DNA from: an uncultured Flavobacteriaceae bacterium
GTDB lineage: Bacteria > Bacteroidota > Bacteroidia > Flavobacteriales > Flavobacteriaceae
Assembly (NCBI GenBank): GCA_905182575.1
Contig: CAJJCA010000021.1
Span: 1-46,882, forward strand
Direction of reading: 5' to 3'
DNA: 46,882 nucleotides
The notes below the pieces were generated by a model. The model was given only the letters and a program-made list of their open reading frames with translations. It made no database searches and had not been told where the DNA came from. Numbering within the stretch: position 1 is the stretch's first letter; every line of letters begins with the position of its first letter. The translations under genes and the position numbers were made by a program. Shown here piece after piece: positions 38,226-46,882 of the stretch.

Positions 38226-40833
38226 GTGGCGAAGTCGAGCAAAGTGACCCCTTTAATGAAACAGTACAACCAGATCAAGGTGAAATATCCCTGATGCCTT
38301 GCTGTTATTTCGTGTTGGAGATTTTTATGAGACTTTTGGGCAAGACGCAGTGAGGGCCTCTAAGATTCTTGGAATTATCCTTACCAAAAGAGGGGCGGGA
38401 AGTTCCAGTGAAACTGAACTTGCTGGTTTTCCACACCATTCCTTGAACACCTATTTGCCAAAATTGGTAAGAGCAGGATGTCGGGTTGCGATTTGTGATC
38501 AGCTCGAGGATCCCAAAATGACTAAAACAATAGTCAAAAGAGGGGTGACTGAATTGGTGACTCCCGGTGTTGCTTTGAATGATGAAGTCTTAGAACATAA
38601 AAAAAACAATTTCCTAGCAGCGCTTTGTTTTGGAAAGAAAAATATTGGAATTTCTTTTTTAGACATTTCTACAGGTGATTATTGGGTGTCAGAAGGCAGT
38701 GCAGTTCAGATTGAGCAGTTGCTTCAAAATTTTTCTCCTACGGAAGTATTGGTTGCCAAGCCTTCCAAGAAAATCTTTGCGGAACAAATGGGTTCGCACT
38801 ACAATATTTTCTATTTAGAAGATTGGGTGTTCGAGCAGACCTTTGCCAATCAAAAATTGACAGACCATTTTAAAACTTCTGGACTGCAAGGTTTTGGAGT
38901 CCAAGATTTGGATGCCGGTGTTATTGCTGCCGGAGCAATTTTGCATTATCTGTCAGAAGCCCACCACAATAAACTGCCTCACATCACTTCCATCCGACGG
39001 ATTTTTGAGTCTGAATATGTATGGATGGATCGGTTTACGGTTCGCAATCTCGAATTGTTTCAATCCAACAACCCTGGAGGTGTTGCCTTGATTGACGTTT
39101 TAGATCAAACGCTTACTTCCATGGGTGGCCGAATGCTCAAGCATTGGCTGGCATTTCCACTAAGAGATCTTAAGCAAATTGAAGAGCGCCTAGATATTGT
39201 TGATGCACTTTTTAAAGATGATAATGCATTTGAAACCCTGTCTGATCGTTTAAGAAAAATGGTCGACATTGAGCGGATTATTTCTAAAATTGCAACCTTA
39301 AAAATAAGTCCAAGAGCCTTGGTGCAATTGGGAAATTCTTTGGGAGAAATTGCGGAAATAAGATCTTATTTGTCAGAGCAAGAGGATAAGGTACTAAAAA
39401 CGTTTGGTAAAGGTTTTTTAGAAAACAAGAAAGTTATTGAATTAATTCAATCCACGCTCAAGGAAGACGCGCCGGTCTTATTAAACAAAGGAGAAGTTAT
39501 TGCCCAAGGAGTTTCTGAGGAATTGGATGAGCTTCGTGATTTATTACAATCGGGTAAAACCCATTTGGATGACATGCTGGCTCGGGAGACCGAACGCTCG
39601 AAAATTCCTTCCTTAAAAATCGCCTTTAATAATGTTTTCGGATATTATATTGAGGTTAGAAATACCCATAAGGACAAAGTTCCCGAAGATTGGATCAGAA
39701 AACAAACCTTGGTCAATGCTGAGCGTTATATTACTGAAGAGTTAAAGGAGTATGAATCTAAAATTTTAGGTGCAGAAGAAAAAATAAGAAGCATAGAGGG
39801 TGCTTTGTATCAAGATTTGTTGATGGCACTTCAGTTGGAATTAAACCCGCTTAAAACCAATGCCCGCCTTTTGGCCCGTTTGGATGTGTTGTGGTGTTTT
39901 TCGGCTTTAGCCCTTAAAAATAATTACGCAAGGCCTCAGTTTTCTAAAAGCACTGCCCTAGAGATAAATGCAGGTCGACATCCCGTTATTGAACATCAAT
40001 TGCCTCCTGACAAACCTTTTATTGATAATGATTTGTTACTCAACCGCGAGCAACAACAAATTATAATGATTACTGGGCCTAACATGTCTGGGAAATCTGC
40101 AATTTTAAGACAAACCGCTTTGTTGGTCTTGATGGCACAAATGGGTTCTTTTATTCCAGCCGCTGCTATGAAAACAGGCGTAGTGGACAAGATATTTACT
40201 CGTGTTGGGGCGAGTGATAATATTTCGATGGGCGAGTCTACTTTTATGGTAGAAATGAATGAAACGGCTTCTATTCTTAACAATATTACTGAAAACAGTT
40301 TGGTGCTGTTGGACGAAATTGGAAGAGGGACGAGTACCTACGATGGGATTTCGATTGCTTGGGCGATTGCCGAATACTTACACGAACACCCTTCGCGCGC
40401 CAAAGTGCTTTTTGCGACCCACTATCACGAACTGAACGAGATGCACCACGCCTTTAATCGCATCAAGAACTTTAATGTTTCAGTAAAGGAACTAAAAGAT
40501 AAGGTGCTTTTTTTAAGAAAATTGGTTCCCGGAGGCAGTGCGCATAGTTTTGGAATTCATGTTGCCCGGATGGCTGGAATGCCACAATTTGTTGTTAAAA
40601 CAGCCGCCCAAAAACTCAAATTATTAGAGAAATCGCATGGAGTAGAAGCCCGTGCTGATCAATTAAAAACGGATAAGGAGGAAATGCAACTGAGCTTTTT
40701 TAATCTGGATGATCCACTCCTAGAAAACTTAAGAAATGAAATTAATAATTTGGACATCGATACCCTTACTCCCATTGAGGCGTTGATGAAATTAAATGAG
40801 ATAAAAAGGATGCTGGGAAATTCTAAAAAATAA
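38226..40833 (+). CDS. mutS: DNA mismatch repair protein MutS (frame-shifted near the N-terminus)
   Basis: About 869 residues. It probably starts at the GTG at 38226 (AKSSKVTPLMKQYNQIKVKY); the frame changes near 38292, where one extra T precedes DALLLFRVGDFYETFG. That segment holds the F-x-E-type mismatch-reading motif (FYE). Walker A GPNMSGKS is at about residue 617, with DEIGRGTSTYDGISIAW (Walker B/ABC signature) and ATHYHELNEM downstream; domains I-V are present. It recognises mispairs with MutL. The preceding SpoU gene is divergent, with a 120-base gap. Confidence 0.95.
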
Positions 40834-40869
40834 ATCTCTTTTAATTTAAAAATAGACTAATAATTTTTA

Positions 40870-40877
40870 TAAATTTG
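40870..40877 (+). promoter_or_regulatory. Bacteroidota -7 element upstream of the tRNA-Gly/tRNA-Leu pair
   Basis: TAAATTTG, 10 bases before the mature 5' end of tRNA-Gly, the same spacing as at tRNA-Leu(CAA). Confidence 0.6.
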
Positions 40878-40887
40878 CCTGCCACTA

Positions 40888-40959
40888 GCGAAAGTAGCTC
40901 AGCGGTAGAGCATCACCTTGCCAAGGTGGGGGTCGCGGGTTCAAATCCCGTCTTTCGCT
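40888..40959 (+). tRNA. tRNA-Gly (anticodon GCC)
   Basis: The acceptor GCGAAAG pairs with CTTTCGC, discriminator T. The D arm is GCTCAGCGGTAGAGC; the anticodon loop TTGCCAA gives GCC; the T arm is CGGG-TTCAAAT-CCCG. CCA is not encoded. Confidence 0.97.
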
Positions 40960-40977
40960 CAATAGTATTTAAGTCCT

Positions 40978-41062
40978 GCTCGAGTGGTGGAATTGGTAGA
41001 CACGTTGGACTTAAAATCCAATGACCATTGCGGTCGTGCGGGTTCAAGTCCCGCCTCGAGTA
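40978..41062 (+). tRNA. tRNA-Leu (anticodon UAA)
   Basis: Class II tRNA 18 bases after tRNA-Gly. The acceptor GCTCGAG pairs with CTCGAGT (terminal G-U), discriminator A; the anticodon arm TTGGA-CTTAAAA-TCCAA gives TAA; the variable arm and the T arm (GCGGG-TTCAAGT-CCCGC) are well formed. It forms the left border of the accessory segment and is a candidate integration site. Confidence 0.97.
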
Positions 41063-41396
41063 CTTTAAGACTCCTTGTTAACTCACTTGATTTTACATGA
41101 CGTTACGGTTTTTTATTTTAATTCTGGCAACTTTTTTGGCTACGATTCTATGCAATACGGCACTAGGGAGCCATTTGAAGTGAAAACCCCAAAAAATCCA
41201 GCCTAAAACTCTCAATTCAACACCCCACCCCTTCAAAATAAATCTACTTTCCTTTTGGGGATACGCTGGTGAAATGGGTATATAGACAAACTAATACTTC
41301 TTTCTAAGTCAAAATTACCTGAGATGAAAGAGTTAGGTTAGGATTTACCCCCTTTTTTGGAATAATACGTATCTTAAGTTTTTTAAAACAGATTGT
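41063..41396. other. Gene-poor stretch after tRNA-Leu(UAA)
   Basis: 334 bases without a convincing gene. A 28-codon frame at 41098-41184 encodes a hydrophobic peptide (RFFILILATFLATILC) but has no recognisable relatives. The rest holds short poly-C and poly-T tracts and many stops in all frames. No direct copy of the tRNA 3' end is seen here. It may be island-border or decayed sequence. Confidence 0.5.
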
Positions 41397-42118
41397 ATGA
41401 TCGATGTAAATTTTAATTTTTTCACTGAAGTTAAAGAAGGTCAGGACCCTGATGCAAAAAGCCCGACTTTAAAAAGATACCATAAAATTTTATGGAGTAA
41501 ATCACTCCCAAATGGCAAAATATTTAATCTTAACGACGATGACCCGGAATTATCTAAGAATTACTTATATCACAAATCTGAATTAGGTTATTTTGTATTT
41601 GGTAGTGACGCCATAACGAATTCTTATAGAAGTCACAAAAGGAAAAAACACATTACAGAACAAATCCCTGATGAGGTAAATGAAATGTTTCTTCAAGGGA
41701 GTAATATTGCTTCGTACAGTATTTTCCCTAAGAACAAGATAAATAATGGGCAGACTATCAATATGGCTAGAGGGGTTGTTAGGTTAATTGACGATAGATT
41801 TGATTTAACCTTAGAATGTATAAAAAGGTTTTATAAAAATCTCCAAGTCCTCTTTATAGCACTTTATTCAAATATAAGGACTTCTTTGATCTGTTTGAAT
41901 CCTACGATAATTATGTAGAGTATTTTTTATTCCAAGACTTAGTTGATAATAAAGGTGAGATTAAATTTTATTTACCTTTTGATGATTTTAAAACTCCACC
42001 TTGTTTTAATTCAGTGGAAGATTATTTAATTTACAAGACCAAAGCTTTAGACTTCAATACTCTGAGAAAATCAAGAATTAATAAAGAAGTTAACAATGTT
42101 AAAATCATCAAAAAATGA
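41397..42118 (+). CDS. DUF6994-like protein (frame-shifted)
   Basis: About 240 residues beginning MIDVNFNFFTEVKEGQDPDA. Conserved-looking segments are TLKRYHKILWSKSLPNGK, FVFGSDAITNSYRSHKRKKH, SYSIFPKNK and IDDRFDLTLECIKRFY; a frame change near 41842 resumes SPLYSTLFKYKDFFDLFES and ends VEDYLIYKTKALDFNTLR. I recall this pattern from the family labelled DUF6994 (number from memory). No signal peptide, membrane segment or enzyme motif is seen. Its stop overlaps the next ATG (ATGA at 42115). Such genes are scattered in accessory DNA, often near defence genes (inference). Confidence 0.68.
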
Positions 42119-42417
42119 CAAAAAATCAAAGACTTTATAATGAGCTAAGAAAGTTTGTTGATATAAAAAAAGTCCTAGATTATGACAATGAATTTTTCGA
42201 CAATAAAAAGCGTTCGTATAAATTTATGATTCCATTTCTTGAAAAATATATAAATATTAAACTAGTTAGAAATAAGATTACAGACCCAAAAGCCCACTCG
42301 CATTTAGTTGACCTTGAATTCAAGACAGCCAATCCCAAAAAATATCGAGAATTAAATAAAGTAAAAGGAATGCCTAGACACGCTGACAAACATTTTCTTT
42401 TTAAGGACAATAAATAA
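42115..42417 (+). CDS. Small unknown protein overlapping the DUF6994-like gene
   Basis: 100 residues, Lys-rich and cytoplasmic, beginning MTKNQRLYNELRKFVDIKKV and ending MPRHADKHFLFKDNK. The 4-base overlap with the previous gene implies coupled translation, so the two may form a functional pair (for example protein and regulator, or toxin and antitoxin). I recognise no family. The single frame is intact. After it come 138 bases without a gene. Confidence 0.55.
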   Translation: MTKNQRLYNELRKFVDIKKVLDYDNEFFDNKKRSYKFMIPFLEKYINIKLVRNKITDPKAHSHLVDLEFKTANPKKYRELNKVKGMPRHADKHFLFKDNK

Positions 42418-42555
42418 CACTGAAAGTAGTATTACTATATAATAAAAGGTGTAAAATTATTATAGGTAAACAAATCAATGTAATATATCTTGGTTGATTA
42501 TTTGAAGGCAGAGTAGCTGTTTTTAAATCAAGTTTAATTTTTTTTATATTTAGAT

Positions 42556-42871
42556 ATGAATAAATCACTTTCGGGGTCACTTAAAAAATCTTTTCCAACT
42601 TATTTTGATAATGCATCTTCTACCCTCGTTAATGATGATGTATTAAATGAAATATTGCCATATTTTAATGGAAAATTTGGTAATGCAAAGCCAAATGACG
42701 CGAATGCTATGTCTAATGAGTTTTTTGATTACTTTAATTCAAATCCTCCAGTAAAAGGTTTAAAAACTCTTGACTATCCGAATAGAGATGAAAAAAAAAT
42801 ATGTTCAAGAATTTTATAAAGAACATATAATGGAAAACAAAGACAAGAAAAAAACAACTATTTACACCTAA
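42556..42871 (+). CDS. Small protein with a cysteine desulfurase-like N-terminus (frame-shifted)
   Basis: About 105 residues. Residues 14-43 (PTYFDNASSTLVNDDVLNEI, then LPYFNGKFGNA) match the opening of NifS/IscS-class cysteine desulfurases, which begin with a YFDNAATT-like motif, V-x-x-x-V-L and L-P-Y-F...GN. The rest does not: there is no PLP-lysine or active-site Cys region, and the protein becomes charged and ends KDKKKTTIY. A frame change at the long A-run near 42795 joins NRDE to KKYVQEFYKEHIMENKD. It ends 12 bases before the helicase start. Either a truncated remnant of a desulfurase, or a small module that borrowed this segment. Confidence 0.5.
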
Positions 42872-42883
42872 AAAAAAGTCATT

Positions 42884-45800
42884 TTGAAAAAGGGGAAGTA
42901 TTTACAAATATTCAATTATCTAAGAGAATTCTCGAAGTTGAGAGCCAAATCAGTCCGAGACATTGAAGCTCAGGAAACCCAATATCCCGAAAAGTTTTGG
43001 CTAAATAATATTCCAGAAAATGAACTATTTGAAAATATAATTAGATCAGGCTTTGATTCAAACAATGAGTATTGGCTGAAAATAAGAAAACCCAAAGGAC
43101 CTGAAAAACCCGAATTCAATAAGCTTTCAGAAAGTTTGGAGTTATGGATAGATAGAGCAACTTTATTTAATGAGGACGCCTTACCAGAACTAAAAGAATC
43201 TGTTGAGGTTAATGGGGAAACAATTGAATTACATACACTCCTGGAGGTAAATAAAGAACTACAGGATTATATTGAGCAAAATTGGATTGATGATTTAATT
43301 GACTTCAACACGAAGGATAAGGTTTACAACATCAAAAATATTGAATACGAAAAGCTCAATTCAGTGTATAAAACCCTATTTAGGATTTTTAATAAAACAG
43401 AACAATTTGGAGAGGAATATGAATTGGTTATTGGTGTAGGATTATTAAATTTTAAGGAAAATGATTCGAGTCCAAAGATATTTAGACATATTTTAACCCA
43501 ACGAGTAGATATCAACTTTGAATACTCTCAAAAAAAATCCGAAATACTAATTACTCCAAATTTAGAATCCACGCCACAAATAGAAACAGATTCCATTTTA
43601 GACTTGAACGATCAGTTTGAGTCACAAAATATAATTGATGCAGAAAAAGCCGTTCAAAACTATTTCAAAGAAAAAAATGTAGAAACCGTTTTTGATGAAA
43701 TAGACACAGATAATGTCCTTCAAATATTTGCAGAACGTTTTTCACCAGAAGGAAGCTATAAATCACTAATTGACAAACCCTCAACCACTAACTCAATGCC
43801 TATTGTTTCGTATTCACCTGCACTTTTATTAAGAAAAAGGAATACAAGAAGCTTAACCTCTTTGTACGATACGATTATAGAAAATATCGAAAATAAAGGG
43901 GCATCAATTGAAATTCCTACAATGAATGAGGTCATTGGAGTTGATTCGGAATTTGAAAACGATATTGACAATGACATAAATTCAAATAATAGAACAAATG
44001 TTGAGCCCATCTTTTTCCCAAAAGAGTTCAATGATGAACAAATTGAGATAATAGAGAAAGCTAAAAACAATAATAATGGGCCGTGTTCAGGGACCTCCAG
44101 GAACAGGAAAGTCACATACAATTGCAAACCTAATTTGTCACCTGCTTGCTAACGGTAAAAAGGTGCTTGTTACGGCCTACACCAAGAGGGCTTTGGAAGT
44201 TTTGAAAGAAAAACTCCCGGAAGAGTTTCAGGACTTAACAGTCAACTTATTGAGCGGCGACTCATCTTCTGTTCAAGATTTACAATCAAGTGTAAATTCA
44301 ATAAATGAAGAGCTTTCAAGTGCTAGTTTATCTACTTACAAACGTCTCATTGATAAATATGAGACTGAATTAAAAGTAACTAGACAATCAATCGCGGAAA
44401 GCGAATATAAACTAGTAGCCATAAAAGAAAAGGCTACACGTAATCAAGAAATTAACAAGGAATATAAAGGAACTTTAGCTGAGATAGCTCAAAATATTGA
44501 AAGAGACCTGGCGAATTTTGACTGGTACGAAGATGATTTCTGCGACATAGGAAATACCGAAATAATTGAAGATCTGAAGACTTTTATTGCTCTTAATAAG
44601 CAATATAATGAGATAGATGAAGAGGATTTTAGCTATTCAATTCCTGAACTAAATCGACTTCCTCCAACCAAGCTGATGTCTGATTACTTCCACACTAAGT
44701 CAGAAAGTAAAAACCGAATATAACTTAGACGAAAATCCAGAGAAAATTAAGTGCTCGTCTATCACTGAGATTATTCAAGAATTAAAAGAGCTACAAGGGT
44801 TTAAATAATTCTGTAGAAAAGATTCAAATTGATTTTGCAGATCTAATCATTGTTGGAAATTCTAAATTATGGAATGAAAAAACAGAAGAAACTAAATCAA
44901 TAATTTCGCGTACTGAAGAACATGATGTCCGCCAAATTGATAAAAATATTGAAATTAAATACCCAAGCGGACAAGAGCTTAAAGCAATTAAAAAATGATG
45001 CCCAAACACTTTTTACTTATTTAATAAGACGGTCATCAATTATCAGGGGTTTCTTTTTCTTGGGAAAGACCATTCTTGATCCAAACAAATTAAAGAAAAA
45101 CTTTATTTCATAGAAGCTGTGACAATTAATGGGAGTCCTTGCGATACAAAAGAGGAGTTTATTGATGTATTAACTGATATTTCGTTTACGCAAGACTTCG
45201 ATGACTTAGCAGATATATGGAAGAAAAAAGTTCCTGATGTTGATTCCATTTATAAGAAATTAATGATTTTTTAAAAATATTAATTCTGAGGTCATAACAC
45301 TCAACGGGTTAGTAGAAGACATAAGTGGGCTGACAGATAAAATAGAAGAAGTACTCAAATCTCAAAATTAACCCTTGATGACAAGGCTGACTTAATAGAG
45401 TAAAATAAAACAAGCTGAGTTTAACCAATTGTCAATTCAGATAGCTGCAATTAAAACACTTCTAGATGTTTCAATTATTCATCTGATTCCTGAAAACACC
45501 TCTACTGTGGCCAGTTAGAGAAATATTTTTTGAATCTTACGCTAAATCTGATCACGCAGCTTTCGCTAAGACTATTGACAAAATTGAGCAGTTAGCTAAG
45601 GATAAATTTAATTTCGAGAGATTTCAAAAACTTAAATCAGACTTAAGTAATAATATCCCTAAGATTCTAGAAACGGTTGAAAAAGGTTCTTTTTTAGAAA
45701 CTGATTTAGAAAAGCTCAAATCCTGCAATTTTTTGTCGCCATGCTGAGAGTGAACTTAAAAAGTTGACGGATAAAAACGAAAAACTACTTATCAGAGACC

Positions 45801-46882
45801 TTAGTGAGTTGGAGAAAAAAGAACAAAAACTAATTGCAAAACTTGCATCCAAAAAAGCATGGTATCATGTTGTTGACGGATTACAAGAAAACCGATCCTT
45901 AAGACAAGAATTGAACGGCATGGGTATCGGCGGTTAAGAAAATTGGCAAAACAGGTAAAGGGAAAAAAGCTTTGAAGTTTAGGAAAATCGCTCAAAAGCA
46001 TATGCAGCAGTGTAAAGATTCTATTCCCTGTTGGATTATGCCTCTTTATAAGGTTGCAGAAACAATTCAACCTGAACAGGAGATGTATGATTATGTAATT
46101 ATTGATGAAGCAAGTCAATTAGGGCCTGACGCACTATTTCTATTTTATATTTCTAAAAAAGTCATAATTGTAGGTGATGATAAACAAACTTCTCCTGAAT
46201 ATATAGGTGTAAATACTGATACAATGAAGCCCTCATATAAAACGCCATTTAAATGGAATTCCTCACTCTGACTTTTATGGGCCTGAATTCAGTTTTTTTG
46301 ACCACGCCAAACTCTTTTGTGATGGAGATAACGGTTTTAAGAGAGCATTTCAGGTGTATGCCTGAAATAATTGAATTTTCAAACAGAAATTTTTATGCGC
46401 CTGATGGAAATGGACTTTATCCACTAAAACAATATTCACAGAAAAGACTTGAACCATTAGAATCTGTTTTTTGCAAAAGCGGATACACCGAGGGGAAGAG
46501 CCTCCGCAATCATTAATGAACCTGAGGCAAATGAAATTGTAAATACTATTGAAAATTTGATATGTGACGAAAGCTACAATGGTAAAACATTTGGGATTAT
46601 CACCCTCCAGGGCAATAAACAATCTGACTTAATTGAAAACTTAACCATAAATAGGATTGGAGAAAAAGAATTTCATAATCGAAAAATTGTTTGTGGAAAT
46701 TCGGCTTCCTTTCAAGGAGATGAAAGGGATATTATCTTTTTAAGCCTAGTAACCGCTCATAATCACAATAGGTCAGGCATTAGTTAAACCCCAAGATGAA
46801 AGGCGTTTCAATGTGGCTGCAAGTAGAGCCAAGGAACAAGTTTGGCTATTTCACTCTATTCAGTTAGAAGATTTAAGCAACA
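42884..46882 (+). CDS. COG1112-type superfamily I helicase, partial at right edge (many frame changes)
   Basis: A very large SF1 (Upf1/RecD-like) helicase. It starts at a TTG at 42884 (KYLQIFNYLREFSKLRAKSV); an upstream in-frame stop is at 42869. The N-terminal ~400 residues precede Walker A, VQGPPGTGKSHTIANLI (about 44080). A long coiled-coil insertion (44200-45900) follows, then AVKKIGKTGKGKKALKFRK, CWIMPLYKVAETI, Walker B YVIIDEASQ, motif III VGDDKQTSPE, motif IV-like LREHFRCMPEIIEFSN, motif V SFQGDERDIIFLSLV and motif VI RRFNVAASRAKEQVWLF. The gene needs about 15 frame changes, most after 44700. More than 1,330 residues are visible and any C-terminal nuclease domain lies beyond the window. 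Confidence 0.85.

Follow-up and report, generated by a model that had tools for sequence, protein, structure and literature searches.

A predicted anti-phage helicase-nuclease gene, broken in frame and cut by the contig end, in a variable site after tRNA-Leu of an uncultured Flavobacteriaceae bacterium

The genes that follow a pair of tRNA genes on a contig of an uncultured Flavobacteriaceae bacterium raise the question of whether they form a new multi-gene defence system, or whether a single defence gene lies there among unrelated neighbours. The window analyzed here is the entire contig C21 (46,882 bases), and its right end is the contig end; genomes, contigs and loci are denoted by G, C and L numbers respectively, and the features of the region are collected in Table 1. 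The initial annotation had described an accessory island next to the tRNA pair that carries a very large superfamily 1 (SF1) helicase, together with several smaller genes in a combination that it did not recognize as a named system. We conclude that the helicase is probably a stand-alone helicase-nuclease of a known kind, predicted to act against phages and to be about 1.8 thousand amino acids long, that sits in a variable spot and is unreadable through single-base errors and the contig end. What appeared to be a new multi-gene defence module is therefore more likely one predicted gene of known type amid unrelated accessory genes.

The homology of the helicase gene is clear from its alignment to a relative of 1806 amino acids encoded in one open frame at L061, in the Flavobacteriia metagenome-assembled genome JACFND010000016.1. 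The window gene aligns with residues 1–1329 of this protein, and has an N-terminal region (from its start to about 44050), a RecA1 domain with Walker A, a long insert, and a RecA2 domain extending to motif VI. With tblastn the same residues are recovered in pieces along 42884–46881 in several frames, with none for residues ~800–956, and frame-aware alignment gives an identity of 0.56 to L061 and 0.65 to L104. All five of the SF1 motifs searched for are present but spread over three frames, with GPPGTGKS (44091–44114) and DEASQ (46104–46118) in frame 3, HFRCMPE in frame 2, and motif VI as RRFNVAASRAK (46801–46833) in frame 1. The large SF1 helicase first proposed is thus borne out by its motifs, but not as one open frame. 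In Pfam scans, one window piece exceeds the cut-off of AAA_11 and two match AAA_12 below its cut-off, in agreement with the proposed class, which we take to be the COG1112 type. The C-terminus cannot be read because the window stops at the contig end.

The architecture of the complete protein is apparent from its relatives, of which ten loci were read (L061, L104, L105, L106 and L118–L123). In all seven scanned with Pfam (L061, L104, L105, L118, L119, L122 and L123) the domain order is AAA_11, a long insert, AAA_12 and an MTES_1575 (Vsr-like) nuclease, so that the C-terminal nuclease for which the initial annotation had advised a search is found in every one of them; the first ~370 residues have no Pfam match in any of the seven. 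The motifs GPPGTGK[S/T] and DEASQ, the NV..SRA of motif VI, and the ECDGD of the nuclease are kept in all nine aligned relatives (L121 was omitted). At L105:6526–11721 (genome G087) the C-terminal part lies in a separate frame directly after a 1491-residue open reading frame (ORF), by error or as a natural split. AlphaFold2 models of the N-terminal and C-terminal regions (mean pLDDT 50.8 and 28.9) are too poor for use.

The distribution of the gene is sporadic in the samples searched. The N-terminal piece was found in none of the 21 other genomes of the genus, which are 65–99% complete, and the N-terminal region occurs in four of 395 genomes in a sample of the order, with the genome studied here counted and G407 a weak match (E 1.2e-4). 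An alignment of four N-terminal regions used as query finds eight of 395 genomes in a sample of the phylum, a count that includes this genome and G123. The N-terminal piece also matches three plasmid records, one from Deinococcus and two from Streptomyces, with about 24% identity, and seven phage records resemble L061 in part, with a coverage of 29% at best. A search of viral_contigs, which can reveal close relatives only, gave no viral relative of either the N-terminal piece or the 100-residue gene. These patterns bear on whether the gene is a housekeeping, DNA-repair or RNA helicase of the UPF1, SMUBP2 or DNA2 type with no role in defence. UPF1/NAM7, SEN1, DNA2 and SMUBP2 are indeed among the 18 PDB sequences matched, and several relatives lie amid metabolic genes, but a gene this rare in the samples, fused to a nuclease in its relatives and missing from the corresponding site of the closest relative is quite improbable as a housekeeping helicase.

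The broken frame could reflect either assembly error or decay. In the helicase, 16 frame changes are counted by frame-aware alignment to L061 and 14 by alignment to L104, numbers that are uncertain in the least conserved stretch, and there are no in-frame stops; 15 of the 16 and 13 of the 14 are single-base steps of one sign. The first 1.2 kb is free of them, and the remainder extend up to the contig end. We compared 32 core genes of the window (32.8 kb) with G004, the nearest relative found (95.3% DNA identity over 14.6 kb), using relatives' ORFs of at least 100 residues and matches of at least 75% identity, which left 1–2.3 kb and ~19.1–22.7 kb uncovered. Frame changes occur in 13 of the 32 genes, 19 in all and again with no in-frame stops, of which 12 are single-base steps of one sign, four are of the opposite sign, and three are two-base steps. 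A count from tblastn pieces gives 18 breaks, also in 13 of 32 genes (with limits of 70% and 60%); the two lists have 11 genes in common and 15 in total. Binned by gene start, the 10 kb nearest the opposite end of the contig accounts for nine changes in 10.8 kb, and the next two bins hold five in 8.3 kb and five in 13.7 kb. Among the frame-broken core genes are rsmA and pth (identified by eye), whose loss a living cell would probably not survive.

Because the errors are alike in kind in the helicase and the core genes, we favor the interpretation that the helicase frame breaks are assembly errors that become denser near the contig end. The alternative, that an acquired defence gene is decaying in this lineage as a true pseudogene, is in keeping with the 14–16 changes in 4.0 kb compared to 19 in the core coding DNA, and with the adjoining desulfurase-like ORF being a fragment. 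We nonetheless regard it as unlikely, since the gene retains its full length over 1329 residues with no in-frame stops and with all five motifs searched for intact, the changes are nearly all of one kind and sign and begin only after 1.2 kb, and core genes such as rsmA and pth are broken as well. The frame breaks in this assembly should thus not be taken as biology, and with 13 of 32 core genes affected, both the gene calls and the completeness estimate of 70.7% may be unreliable.

Several observations weigh against a stand-alone defence gene that is intact in the cell. At about 6–7 times the core-gene density of 0.58 per kb, the frame changes in the helicase are also compatible with decay, and the nuclease of the window gene is predicted from the relatives only. 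A search for the continuation of the gene on other contigs of the same genome, run without a positive control, found none. The N-terminal window piece is matched by no PADLOC model, and L061 scores 252 bits with the NCBIfam model of the anti-phage protein ProA (NF058533), compared to a cut-off of 1500. Among the relatives, L106 is a weak N-terminal match only (E 1.2e-4), no defence neighbor was recognized by eye at L104, L105, L119, L122 or L123, and L104 adjoins amino-acid synthesis genes. Other loci do have defence-like neighbors, which count in favor of a defence gene: type I restriction-modification and McrBC genes surround L106 (a relative that, with one other, is the most distant of all), AbiEii and DUF6088 genes follow L061 at a distance of ~2.3 kb downstream, and genes for the toxins BrnT and ParE are found ~3 and ~7 kb from L120. 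There is an IS200-type transposase in the neighborhood of L118.

The site itself is variable, as had been proposed from the change in gene content after mutS (identified by eye; its ORF terminates at 40833) and the tRNA pair. We fetched 12 regions from 11 relatives; nine reach tRNA-Leu, and seven (G004, G016, G019, G007, G006, G013 and G015) continue for at least about 1 kb to its right. By eye, the ORFs in these seven fall into at least five arrangements, and because they differ in this way and lack the helicase piece, we consider the site after tRNA-Leu to be variable within the genus and the content past it to be accessory. The DNA of G004 matches that of the window through tRNA-Leu and R1, homology stops at position 41285 of the window, and the next gene in G004 encodes an alcohol dehydrogenase. 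The GC content of 41300–46882 is 0.318, compared to 0.366 for positions 1–41000, and the lowest value among 71 windows of 5.5 kb within 1–40500 is 0.327. An Rfam scan of 40850–42900 gives the two tRNAs and one match under its gathering score, and there are no tandem repeats at 40800–46882. Integration targeted to the tRNA is not supported by what the contig covers, although an element whose right border lies beyond the contig end may have entered in this way: no integrase was found among eight ORFs scanned with Pfam, and the 3′ end of tRNA-Leu is not repeated within the window. Nor does a tRNA gene adjoin the helicase gene in any of the ten relative loci, the nearest being one ~4 kb off in L105.

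Table 1. Features at the right end of the window, with the evidence for each.
Feature	Position	Strand	Evidence and remarks
tRNA-Gly (gcc)	40888–40960	+	ARAGORN; Rfam RF00005
tRNA-Leu (taa)	40978–41063	+	ARAGORN; Rfam; last feature common to the 9 of 11 relatives with contigs reaching tRNA-Leu
R1, dispersed intergenic repeat of ~100 bp	41183–41290	+	18 copies in own genome, this copy included; in 5 of 22 genus genomes
DUF6994 gene, frame broken	41397–42118	+	Pfam PF22507, E 1.1e-50
100-residue gene	42115–42417	+	Overlaps the end of the DUF6994 gene by ATGA
R2, second dispersed repeat	42447–42550	+	9 own-genome places at E < 1e-5, this one included
87-residue ORF, desulfurase-like fragment	42556–42819	+	Residues 16–46 similar to cysteine desulfurase N-termini (DndA/SspA/NifS)
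SF1 helicase of the helicase-nuclease family, frame broken	42884–46882	+	Homology, Pfam, motifs; cut by contig end

Three shorter ORFs lie between tRNA-Leu and the helicase gene, and correspond to those first described, except that the DUF6994 gene is broken into two pieces that match profile positions 1–147 and 141–226. Among the papers listed in a literature search, DUF6994 appears only in a Pfam database paper. Searches of PADLOC, Pfam and NCBIfam gave no match for the 100-residue gene. The 87-residue ORF has no Pfam family, and matches only the first ~31 positions of DndA/SspA/NifS with E values of 4e-5 to 1e-4 (PADLOC DndA, 4.2e-5; NCBIfam NifS, 4.5e-5); a Dnd/Ssp phosphorothioation system was rejected, as there is desulfurase similarity over these ~31 residues only and none of the ORFs scanned in the region matches a partner gene.

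A new multi-gene defence module made up of the DUF6994 gene, the small gene, the desulfurase-like gene and the helicase is suggested by the placement of all four close together on one strand, and by the rare and sporadic occurrence of DUF6994 itself, which is found in two of 395 genomes of the order sample (this genome included) and in three plasmid records. However, none of the three partners has a match at E 0.01 in any of the ten helicase loci, although the L121 locus is only 5.9 kb with almost no flank, and the positive control worked for DUF6994 (in L107), with none for the other two genes. The other DUF6994 gene of the order sample, at L107 (G281:C2 near 158968), has no ORF similar to the 100-residue gene in the 3.7 kb read, and no helicase is seen in its ORF list. 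The two dispersed repeats R1 and R2 also lie among the genes of the proposed module. Because the partner genes are absent from the relatives' loci the module is not supported, and we consider it highly improbable. The DUF6994 gene at L107 comes after an ORF whose start resembles the Cas9 N-terminus by eye.

The repeats are features of the genome at large. The copies of R1 number 18 in this genome (in the window and at L002–L008 and L011–L020), 16 in G012, seven in G004, and one each in G011 and G013, some of them partial, and it is absent at E 0.001 from the other 17 of the 22 genus genomes. Genes with tyrosine-recombinase domains lie within ~2 kb of R1 copies at L087, L092 and L097, an observation made without a chance control, and L094, near an R1 copy, has a tyrosine-recombinase match below its cut-off. 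Places of R2 besides that in the window are at L087, L089–L091, L094, L095 and L063:531–640; at L087, L089, L090 and L095 it is directly before ORFs that by eye have signal-peptide-like starts. In G004, R1 and R2 are ~45 bp apart, ahead of the alcohol dehydrogenase gene. The idea that R1 or R2 forms a structured single strand was rejected, since neither folds clearly better than its shuffles (z of 0.30 and −1.38). A stretch of ~490 bp in G004 (L063:1881–2376) has matches of 95–97% identity on contigs C1 and C13 of the genome studied here, and a shorter match on contig C3.

As a stand-alone helicase-nuclease, the protein would be expected to act on DNA and against phages. It would load on foreign DNA via its N-terminal region, its long insert, or both; the SF1 motor, judging by its kept motifs, would translocate on or unwind the DNA; and the C-terminal Vsr-like nuclease, presumably also encoded in this genome by a gene intact in the living cell, would cut it. 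Such a protein would be self-sufficient and restriction-like, working with neither a methylase nor any other partner conserved beside it. It is also possible, but with less confidence, that the gene belongs to a distinct and unnamed single-gene defence family, seen in the Flavobacteriales and in more remote lineages of their phylum, that degrades incoming DNA alone and is not certified by the ProA, Hhe or Mokosh models. Tentatively, the traits of this family could be its own N-terminal region, marked among close members by the signatures EEYEL..GVGLL and LRKRNTR, an insert of ~500 residues within the SF1 motor, and the Vsr-like nuclease, and several members might have a further C-terminal region lacking a Pfam match. 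In either case, the relatives provide a small and testable set of single-gene helicase-nucleases in the Flavobacteriales and further afield in the phylum.

Comparison with known systems places the stand-alone helicase-nuclease closest to a candidate rather than to an established system; the PADLOC matches are to single-protein models and are not calls of complete systems. The initial annotation had drawn a link to Mokosh (MkoA/MkoC), which has an SF1 helicase core in common with the window gene and supplies the best model for two of the four small helicase-core window pieces, with PDC-S37 best for the other two. Mokosh types I and II are, however, given with a PLD-like domain in PMC10952713, and no PLD domain is matched in the seven Pfam-scanned relatives, which have MTES_1575 in its place; with PDC-S37 scoring above the Mokosh models in all eight relatives scanned, membership in Mokosh was rejected. 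Hhe, a DUF4011 helicase (PDLC02194, NF042953), shares the RecA2 and nuclease regions, but L061 scores 154 bits and five other relatives 119–163 against a cut-off of 2000, with no DUF4011 among the relatives' Pfam matches, and membership in it was likewise rejected. The portion of PMC9122126 consulted contains nothing on Hhe, and PMC10250203 describes a Pseudomonas aeruginosa defence hotspot at which a large DUF4011 gene forms a conserved flank, so that some DUF4011 proteins would appear to be core genes in that species. The ProA model also covers helicase and nuclease, and L061 residues 367–1516 align to positions 635–1752 of its 1903, but the first 634 positions are unaligned and five other relatives score 142–250 bits; with scores so far below the cut-off of 1500, membership was rejected. 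No paper on ProA was among those listed in a literature search. Giant proteins combining HEPN, transglutaminase, SF1 helicase, Vsr (MTES_1575) and wHTH domains, which lack accompanying modification genes, were proposed in 2013 to act directly on invading DNA (PMC3710099); they resemble the relatives in the fusion of an SF1 helicase to a Vsr-family nuclease, and differ in that the relatives' Pfam matches include no HEPN, transglutaminase or wHTH domain. Lastly, PDC-S37 (PDLC05009) is itself only a PADLOC phage-defence candidate, for which a literature search by name found no paper, and its first ~250–310 model positions are unaligned in L061, L104, L105, L122 and L106, where the best stretch spans the core. 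It is nevertheless the best PADLOC model in each of the eight relatives, and L061 residues 368–1508 align to positions 280–1377 of its 1550 with 239 bits, across both the SF1 core and the nuclease.

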